From NCBI GenBank assembly GCA_017404555.1, contig JAFRCD010000005.1, positions 1 to 64,000 of the forward strand: a DNA stretch of 64,000 bases, given 5' to 3'. The notes under the pieces were generated by a model, which was given only the letters and a program-made list of their open reading frames with translations, was not told the DNA's origin and did no database searches. How positions within the stretch are numbered: the stretch's first letter is position 1; each line of letters opens with the position of its first letter. Shown one piece after another: positions 3,672-5,372 of this stretch. The DNA comes from Bacilli bacterium (lineage in GTDB: Bacteria > Bacillota_I > Bacilli_A > RF39 > UBA660). The translations under genes were made by a program, and so were the position numbers.

Positions 3672-4289
3672 ATGGCAAGAGTAAAGAACAGTGTAACGAC
3701 AAAAGCACGTCATAAGAAAGTGTTAAAACAAGCTAAAGGTTACTTTGGTAGTAAACATAGATTATATAAATCAGCTAAAGAACAATTAATGCATTCTGGA
3801 CAATATGCTTATCGTGATCGTAAACAAAAGAAACGTGATTTTAGAAAGCTTTGGATAACAAGAATTAATGCCGCTTGTCATGAACGTGGTATTAGTTATT
3901 CAAGATTTATTGATGGTTTAACTAAAGCTGGTGTAGCAATAAATAGAAAGATGTTATCAGAAATAGCTATTAATGATCCTAAAGCTTTTGATGAAATAGT
4001 AAAAACAGCTAAAAAAGGATTAGAAGGTAAAGTAAAAGCTGAAGAAGTAAAAAATAGTGCTGAAGTAACTATTAAAGGAAAGACTGCTAAGAAAGAGACA
4101 GAAGCAAAGAAAGAACCAGCTAAGAAAGCACCTGTAAAGAAAGAAGAACCTAAAAAAGAAGTAAAGAAAGAGGCTAAGAAAGATTATGCTACACTTTCAG
4201 TAGCTGAATTAAAAGCTGAAGCCAAGAAAAAAGGAATAAAGGGTTATTCAACAATGAAGAAAGCAGATTTAATTGCTGCTTTAAAATAA
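3672..4289 (+). CDS. rplT: 50S ribosomal protein L20 with a C-terminal Rho_N/SAP-like extension
   Basis: Residues 1 to about 118 are ordinary L20 ([19 protein letters not shown] onward), needed for early 50S assembly and a known autoregulator of this operon. The protein continues to 205 residues. First comes a Lys/Glu/Ala/Pro-rich, probably disordered linker (about 119-170). It ends in a 34-residue helix-loop-helix motif with [18 protein letters not shown] and ADLIAAL (bases 4185-4286), which resembles the Rho N-terminal/SAP fold. Normal L20 stops at the end of the core. S2, encoded 90 bases downstream, has the same type of tail, so the extension is genuine and not a frameshift. Confidence 0.95.
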
Positions 4290-4293
4290 ACAT

Positions 4294-4345
4294 ATTAGAT
4301 GGTTTATTTATCTAGTGCCCTTGTGGTGATAAATAATAGTCTAAT
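4294..4345 (+). promoter_or_regulatory. structured leader hairpin before rpsB
   Basis: Between rplT and rpsB, ATTAGA (4294-4299) pairs with TCTAAT (4340-4345), and TTATTTATC (4304-4312) pairs with GATAAATAA (4328-4336). An asymmetric internal loop separates the stems, and the apical loop holds GTGCCC and TTGTGG. No T-run follows, so it is not a simple terminator. A ribosomal-protein binding leader controlling rpsB-tsf is a reasonable inference. Confidence 0.55.
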
Positions 4346-4379
4346 AGAAGAAAAATAAAAACGAAAAGGAGATTATGAT

Positions 4380-5372
4380 ATGACAGTAGTATCAATGAAT
4401 TATTTATTAGAAGCTGGTGTTCATTTTGGACATCAAAAAAGAAGATGGAATCCAAAAATGAAGGAATACATCTATACAACAAGAGATGACATATATATTA
4501 TCGATTTACAAAAGACAGCAGAAAAGATTGAAGAAGCTTATGCTGCTATTAAAGAAATCGCTGAAAAAGAAGGAAAGTTCTTATTTGTAGGAACTAAGAA
4601 ACAAGCTCAAGAAGCTGCAGAAGAAGCTGCAACTCGTACTAATATGTACTTTGTAAATGAAAGATGGTTAGGAGGAACTCTAACTAACTTTAAGACTATT
4701 AGATCAAGAGTTAGAAGAATGGAAGAAATTGAAAAGCAAGAAGAAGATGGAACTTTCGATTTACTTCCTAAAAAAGAAGTTATTAAAATAAGAAAAGAAT
4801 ATGACAAATTACATCGTAATTTACGTGGTATTAGAGATATGAAGAAAGTACCACAAGCAATGATTATCGTTGATCCTAAGTGTGAAGAAATTGCGATTAA
4901 AGAAGCTCGTATTTTAGGAATACCTGTATTTGGTATTGTTGATACCAATTGTGATCCTGATATGGTAGATTATGTTATTCCTGGTAATGATGATGCTGTA
5001 AGAGCAGTTAAATTAATTATTGGAGTACTTGCTAATGCCATTGCTGAAGTAAATGGTAATGAAATGATTGACTATGTCAATAATGATGATAAGGGTAAAG
5101 AAAAGCCAGCTAAGAAGGAAACTAAGAAAGAAGAAAAGGAAGAACCTAAGAAGGAAGAAAAACCAAAGAAGACTACTAAGGAAGAGACTAAAGTAGAAGA
5201 AAAGAAGGAAGAAGCACCAAAGAAAGAAGCTAAAAAAGCTCCTAAAAAGGAAGAAGTAAAAGAAGATTTAGATTCTAAGACTTTAGTTGAATTAAAAGAA
5301 ATGGCTAAAGCTAAAGGTATTAAAGGATACTCAAAACTTAAGAAAGCTGAACTTATTGAAGCTTTAAAATAA
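4380..5372 (+). CDS. rpsB: 30S ribosomal protein S2 with a C-terminal Rho_N/SAP-like extension
   Basis: Residues 1 to about 230 are normal S2, with [19 protein letters not shown] near the N-terminus and the conserved [13 protein letters not shown]2 joins the 30S subunit late and bridges head and body, near S1 or its equivalents. The chain then runs to 330 residues. A roughly 65-residue Lys/Glu/Pro linker leads into a terminal helix-loop-helix motif with [20 protein letters not shown] and AELIEALK, closely matching the end of L20 here. Typical S2 is about 250 residues. AAGGAG precedes ATG 4380. Co-oriented with tsf 18 bases downstream. Confidence 0.96.

Follow-up and report, generated by a model that had tools for sequence, protein, structure and literature searches.

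Ribosomal proteins L20 and S2, and often the protease FtsH, end in a putative Rho_N-family module in a family of Bacilli

Introduction

Considering that extensions of ribosomal proteins are described as common and mostly unexplained in passages of a study of Mycoplasma pneumoniae (PMC9534751), a locus at which two neighbouring genes for unrelated ribosomal proteins end in the same small module raises the question of what this module is, how it came to be shared and what it may do for its carriers. The locus is situated in a stretch of 64,000 nucleotides of a Bacilli bacterium of the RF39 order (positions 1 to 64,000 of contig JAFRCD010000005.1, assembly GCA_017404555.1; named the "window" in the current work), in which the genes for L20 and S2 are each extended at the C-terminal end. 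The same passages report that 11 of the 52 ribosomal proteins of this species are extended, with most extensions predicted to be disordered and their functions largely elusive, and make no mention of one folded module recurring on the two subunits and a protease.

Results

C-terminal extensions of L20 and S2

The identity of both proteins as bacterial L20 and S2 is given by TIGR01032 (173.2 bits, NCBIfam cut-off 65.65) and TIGR01011 (340.3 bits, cut-off 76.3). Ordinary ribosomal sequence continues until about residue 118 in L20 and about residue 223 in S2, and is followed, as originally predicted, by a C-terminal extension (in L20, residues 119-205, beginning at base 4026; in S2, about residues 224-330, ending at base 5369), within reading frames that are both open and unbroken (Table 1). 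The motif KGIKGYS and the K-K-A-x-L-I-x-A-L-K finish, which had been noticed in both tails, were confirmed in each of them, the latter as KKA-D/E-LI-x-ALK, and over 89 nt the DNA of the two module copies, spaced by 1083 nt, is 72% identical. That the tails arose by an accident of annotation or assembly was rejected since relatives carry the tail too. The presence of the module on L20, S2 and FtsH in part of these relatives was scored with a home-made profile of 11 tails at a threshold of 8 bits; the L20 module of the window reaches 66.6 bits against the profile of the tails.

Table 1 Positions of the extended proteins, of the candidate modules and of further carriers (window coordinates, unless a genome or locus handle is given)
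Feature	Position or handle	Strand	Evidence or remark
rplT, ribosomal protein L20 with C-terminal extension, 205 aa	3672..4289	+	PF00453 161.9 bits; TIGR01032 173.2 bits
L20 linker, residues 119-169, Lys/Glu/Pro-rich	4026..4178	+	net charge +8
L20 Rho_N module, residues 170-205	4179..4286	+	PF07498 34.3 bits (whole protein), 38.8 bits (module alone)
rpsB, ribosomal protein S2 with C-terminal extension, 330 aa	4380..5372	+	PF00318 333.1 bits; TIGR01011 340.3 bits
S2 linker, residues 224-294	5049..5261	+	net charge +3; pLDDT <50 at residues 239-294
S2 Rho_N module, residues 295-330	5262..5369	+	PF07498 39.1 bits; predicted helices 302-312 and 322-329
Third module copy, FtsH C-terminus, outside the window	G000:C3:71799-71888 (locus L003)	-	33.8 bits
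Rho as module carrier in the class	L004; L259		L259 by sequence inspection
S1-domain protein, several S1 domains, ending in linker and Rho_N module	L287:189-1796		genome G091
Sigma-70 factor with two N-terminal Rho_N copies	L276:1309-3111		genome G037
OppF-like oligopeptide ABC ATPases, C-terminal Rho_N module	L338:153-1811, L339:187-1623		L339 24.3 bits, just under cut-off
Flavodoxin with module	L299		
Apparent membrane proteins, module at or near the C-terminus	L024, L077, L279, L290, L291, L293, L296, L333-L335, L340, L379		
L20s with basic tail instead of module	G005, G008, G013, G015, G018, G026, G078-G082		

Family of the module

The gathering cut-off of Pfam for Rho_N (PF07498; 24.9 bits) is exceeded by both L20 (34.3 bits, E-value 2.2e-8) and S2 (39.1 bits, 7.2e-10), and because of these E-values a chance likeness is excluded. 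The presence of one module on two unrelated ribosomal proteins of different subunits is supported by the Rho_N scores in both, each protein showing above cut-off just its ribosomal domain (Ribosomal_L20 or Ribosomal_S2) plus Rho_N. A lack of any similarity to Rho_N, set beforehand as the outcome that speaks against the original prediction, therefore did not occur.

That prediction had described the endings as Rho_N/SAP-like, an assignment that is supported by the Rho_N scores and by the profile relatives, the SAP score itself being borderline and that for HeH below cut-off. Against HeH/LEM (PF12949, cut-off 28.9 bits) the isolated modules scored 15.0 and 14.9 bits. For SAP (PF02037, cut-off 23.9 bits), whole L20 reached 21.8 bits and whole S2 was unlisted at E <= 1; the isolated L20 module scored 28.2 bits, in a match covering positions 1-20 of 37 only, and the isolated S2 module 18.5 bits. 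The solved structures retrieved as profile relatives are mostly of nucleic-acid proteins and include 1jjr (2.9e-11 over two stretches, 6.7e-4 each), which is deposited as thyroid autoantigen and which we take to be Ku70, as well as Ku70/XRCC6 entries (0.0021), Rho (7oqh, 1.8e-7; 8hsj, 2e-5) and Tho1 (0.018). Rho, Ku70 and Tho1 are RNA- or DNA-binding proteins. Judged by these profiles, the module, of about 36 residues, belongs to the Rho_N family.

Predicted structure

An AlphaFold model of S2, generated with 39 relatives, consists of a well-folded core, a stretch with pLDDT below 50 (residues 239-294) and a last segment of 30 residues with pLDDT 92-93, this C-terminal end being modelled confidently as a helix-loop-helix (Table 1). 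The module modelled alone, from 62 sequences, reached a pLDDT of 81.7. According to these models, the S2 tether is disordered and the module is folded. Superposition of the predicted module on the N-terminal helices of Rho (3l0o) gave a Z of 6.0 with an rmsd of 1.5 over 42 residues, and on residues 461-501 of the DNA nuclease FAN1 a Z of up to 4.9, values which, being below 8 for a short helical model, may reflect a common arrangement. A Foldseek search with the module model, which is very short, returned E-values that were all above 1, none of them significant.

A third copy on FtsH and further carriers

A third copy of the module is found outside the window at the C-terminus of a protein which, given its AAA and Peptidase_M41 domains, is FtsH (PF07498 29.1 bits beside these two domains). 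Beyond L20, S2 and FtsH, the Rho_N search detected no module copy in the 944-kb genome, and the profile of the tails returned those three places and no others at E <= 10. Rho itself was undetected in this genome (no TIGR00767 match at E <= 1e-20) and in all 36 other family genomes searched, being found in one of 60 relatives in all. The S1-domain search of the window's genome gave six matches, each in a frame of its own and one of them NusA-like (L344), and detected no multi-domain S1 protein.

Since FtsH and, in other Bacilli, apparent membrane proteins, OppF-like ATPases, a sigma factor and an S1-domain protein carry the module as well, the original proposal of a function at the ribosome surface is too narrow. 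Membrane proteins were named by their hydrophobic stretches, and these names, like those of L259 (Rho) and L344 (NusA-like), come from sequence reading without a Pfam match. Two side observations concern further frames: a recurrent protein of about 270 aa or more in other Bacilli has weak Rho_N-like stretches near its end (L079, L084, L283-L286, L288), and an identical 153-aa frame with the module occurs in one genome (G118) at two places about 13 kb apart (L296 and L345).

What FtsH, the OppF-like ATPases, the apparent membrane proteins and the flavodoxin have in common with the other carriers is the module and not an RNA-related job, as would be the case if the module were a protein-docking tag by which one common adaptor, or contact between modules, gathers ribosomes, FtsH and other machines at the membrane. 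Docking to a common partner, unlikely though credible in our estimate, is the main rival to a grip on nucleic acid, against which it also counts that the ATPases, apparent membrane proteins and flavodoxin have no obvious reason for contact with nucleic acid.

Distribution in the family and the class

All 80 GTDB S2 loci analysed, being the best 80 of 560 obtained with a full-length query including the tail, carry the module, with a lowest profile score of 43.9 bits; the corresponding genomes (G060-G089 and others) are counted here as nearest GTDB relatives. The closest GTDB records are labelled mostly as uncultured Bacilli, the others as Bacillales, Erysipelotrichaceae, Tenericutes, Clostridia or Firmicutes, and a few are labelled as animal gut samples. 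L20 is encoded within 45 of these 80 loci, 40 times with the module and five times with a basic low-complexity tail.

Of 98 sampled genomes of the window's family, 91 (the window's own counted in) yielded an L20, and its frame is at least 164 aa long in 89 of the 91, the exceptions being G338 (121 aa) and G323 (split). When 30 loci were fetched by L20 core (the best-scoring cores of the 91 genomes, the window's own among them), the module was present on L20 in 28. For FtsH, 30 GTDB genomes picked by their L20 and S2 tails yielded 28 proteins, 26 with the module and two without (G080 and G082), and ten family genomes without a Rho_N match on FtsH yielded eight, none of which passes the tail profile. 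On FtsH, then, the module is frequent but not constant. One further locus set was chosen by Rho_N matches and for that reason gives no prevalence for the family. The FtsH of genome G002 has a look-alike of the module that scores below the tail-profile threshold.

Of 23 genomes from other families of the class (G037-G059), 12 have an L20 with the module and ten an L20 that lacks it and has no extension (118-130 aa), L20 not having been found in the remaining genome; S2 carries it in four genomes and is without it in 19, and none of the 15 FtsH proteins read from this set has it. Family f22 has the S2 module in all four genomes with a match (G159, G166, G173 and G180), the remaining two matches of G173 being apparent membrane proteins. 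The phylum search matched 44 of 195 genomes, and every other match listed belonged to the window's own family or class; as the matches listed lie there, the search is uninformative on other classes. Fusions to L20 and to S2 thus have a scattered occurrence in the class, whereas that to FtsH was encountered in no genomes other than those of the window's family and the nearest GTDB relatives. Both ribosomal fusions being present in several further families, a spread by duplication within this lineage, as supposed by the original prediction, is not supported.

Conservation, charge and replacement tails

Three duplicate loci (L002, L027 and L128) were left out of the identity, charge, nearest-neighbour and pN/pS counts. 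When 39 relatives were compared with the S2 of the window, identity averaged 0.81 for the core, 0.29 for the linker and 0.61 for the module; by this comparison of sequences, the module is conserved while the linker drifts. Invariant in 62 aligned L20 and S2 tails are the two lysines that start the last helix, together with L, A and L. The pN/pS, from ortholog pairs preselected at 78-97% DNA identity, is 0.32 for L20, 0.39 for S2 and 0.18 for FtsH. These values and invariant positions, the conserved module behind an unconserved linker and the S2 module in every one of the 80 best loci argue against a promiscuous domain that passes between genes by copying and has little effect under selection in the proteins that receive it. 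Such a domain would account for the patchy occurrence over L20, S2, FtsH and other proteins of the class, including its absence from FtsH in some relatives and from some L20s; we regard this account as improbable.

The mean net charge of the module is +1.7 in L20 (n=74), +1.1 in S2 (n=110) and -0.2 in FtsH (n=47), and in the window's own genome +5, +2 and +5, respectively. The low mean charge, slightly negative in FtsH, is a point against a grip on nucleic acid. Twelve L20s without the module were read from the family and its nearest GTDB relatives, and 11 of them end in a basic low-complexity tail rich in Lys, Thr and Ala (Table 1), with a net charge of +8 to +16 in the six measured. The twelfth (L350, of the family genome G338, which is in 220 contigs) has no tail at 121 aa, and this too is a point against the grip. 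The replacement tails, which the ten module-less L20s of other families lack, suggest that L20 in this family and its nearest relatives usually requires a basic and flexible end; a role in contact with nucleic acid is therefore favoured, and the substitution of a low-complexity tail for the module speaks against a docking tag.

History of the copies

According to the original prediction, the module spread by duplication within the lineage, which the window's genome does not show: identity between the modules of its L20 and S2 is 57%, and the same codon is used for 12 of 23 common residues, values that give no support to a recent duplication in this genome. Across 64 genomes, L20 and S2 modules share an identity of 0.66 within a genome versus 0.56 between genomes, a within-genome level which none of 2000 shuffles reached, either in the 46 linked genomes (L20 and S2 fetched together as a single locus) or in the remaining 18, in a comparison made without phylogeny control. 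Part of the codon agreement is due to shared codon usage, as FtsH pairs also rise, by 0.04-0.05. In nine of the 64 genomes, the S2 module resembles, at the DNA level, the L20 module of the same genome more than it does any other S2 module of the set. When the S2 module was compared with all L20 modules, that of the same genome was the closest in 14 of the 46 linked and two of the 18 other genomes, a linkage effect that is non-significant (Fisher p 0.20) and uncontrolled for phylogeny. These data fit repeated or occasional local copying, or gene conversion, between the often-neighbouring L20 and S2 genes in some relatives; that adjacency drives such gene conversion is suggestive, not proven.

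The within-genome likeness of L20 and S2 modules is also what co-evolution with a common docking partner would give. The FtsH module, however, hardly follows the other two within the 41 genomes compared (0.452 within versus 0.435 between genomes for L20, and 0.478 versus 0.465 for S2), which speaks against such a partner, as does the length of the loop. Loops come in two lengths, the longer exemplified by GYSTM and the shorter consisting of TTG, VTG or VAG followed by M or L. Among the best 80 of 560 GTDB loci, S2 has the shorter loop in ten, and the neighbouring L20 likewise in all ten (with the loop of L135 counted by eye and the others by pattern match), eight further L20s with a shorter loop being located beside an S2 with a long one. 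FtsH, which was read from nine of the ten genomes with short-loop loci, keeps the longer, SKM-type loop in all nine, its tyrosine being changed in two.

A tree of 269 tails was built on 43 columns, 23 identical tails having been dropped beforehand; 43 columns are too short for branching order, and therefore the nearest-neighbour counts and the minimum number of label changes (34, obtained without a shuffled control) were used alone. The nearest relative outside the own genome is another FtsH module for 44 of 46 FtsH modules, and a module of the other kind for 35 of 223 L20 and S2 modules. This separation of FtsH from the intermixing L20 and S2 modules agrees with the possibility that the module aids ribosome assembly by holding newly made L20 and S2 on rRNA or by serving as an RNA chaperone, the FtsH copy being unrelated. 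L20 is an early assembly protein, as this requires; S2, contrary to it, joins the small subunit late, and the probability that we assign to an assembly aid is low.

Discussion

Relation to known proteins

Rho is among the closest likenesses: all three carriers of the window's genome score above the Rho_N cut-off, and the predicted helix-loop-helix aligns with Rho structures, at a Z that may reflect a common arrangement. In Rho, however, the helices are located N-terminally and are followed by an OB fold and a RecA-type ATPase, neither of which is present in L20 or S2, whereas here the module is C-terminal and tethered, on ribosomal proteins and FtsH, in genomes without detected Rho. SAP domains (PF02037), as in Ku70 and Tho1, are of similar length and have basic residues before the last helix, but differ in that the whole-protein Pfam scores of L20 and S2 are below the cut-off.

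An L20 with a C-terminal extension is likewise described by the NCBIfam model NF011109 (PRK14537), named "50S ribosomal protein L20/unknown domain fusion protein", a name mentioning neither S2 nor FtsH. The window's L20 scores below the cut-off of this model (171.9 versus 187 bits), which also matches the S2 tail (2.8e-5). The NCBIfam "sunset domain variants" NF051450 (L20) and NF051451 (S2) concern the same pair of proteins with, judged by their names, a different extra domain, and L20 and S2 of the window are far under their cut-offs (142.5 versus 375 and 288.3 versus 710, respectively). Already known, then, are the fusion of L20 to an unlabelled domain (PRK14537) and, by name, an extra domain on the L20/S2 pair (sunset variants); no report that L20, S2 or FtsH bears a Rho_N or SAP module was found in the open-licence PMC literature.

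What the module may do

The most likely function of the module, proposed tentatively and at a little less than even chances, is that of a tethered weak grip on nucleic acid, probably RNA. On this view, proteins that work near nucleic acid would have gained a small Rho_N-family headpiece, SAP-like in kind and attached by a long, flexible tether. Through the tails of L20 and S2, each ribosomal subunit would gain a weak extra grip on RNA, which might be mRNA on its way out of or into the ribosome, rRNA in the course of assembly or the RNA of a neighbouring ribosome, and many such weak contacts could sum up on polysomes. The FtsH tail would place the same grip on the cytosolic end of the protease, near RNA or ribosomes at the membrane. 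S2 is located near the mRNA exit and in E. coli docks S1; since no multi-domain S1 was detected in the window's genome, we infer that the S2 tail could assume part of the mRNA contact of S1.

The nucleic-acid proteins among the profile relatives, the invariant lysines, the basic replacement tails of L20 and the occurrence of the module on Rho, an S1-domain protein and a sigma-70 factor all point to such a grip. RHON1, a plant protein with a C-terminal Rho_N motif, is described as RNA-binding (PMC11120748). On the opposite side, a monomeric N-terminal fragment of Rho, comprising this fold and the OB fold, did not shift double-stranded DNA (PMC12133298).

A bolder proposal, quite unlikely in our view, is that the module serves as an address common to translation and membrane quality control, so that ribosomes and FtsH would gather on the same RNA or adaptor at the membrane, the L20 and S2 copies being kept alike by repeated local copying.

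Significance

Throughout a bacterial family, one conserved module, folded according to the models, is found on both ribosomal subunits and, in many genomes, on a membrane protease as well. Natural swaps represent ready-made experiments: L20 occurs with the module, with a basic tail or with nothing, the loop is long or short, and FtsH is with or without the module. If the module binds RNA, it would provide a built-in grip on mRNA or polysomes in bacteria in which Rho is undetected, as is a multi-domain S1 in the present genome. Binding of a partner would instead make the module the mark of a hub that links ribosomes to the membrane. Should the reading as a common address be true, translation would be physically coupled to the surveillance of new membrane proteins by FtsH in a small-genome bacterium without detectable Rho.
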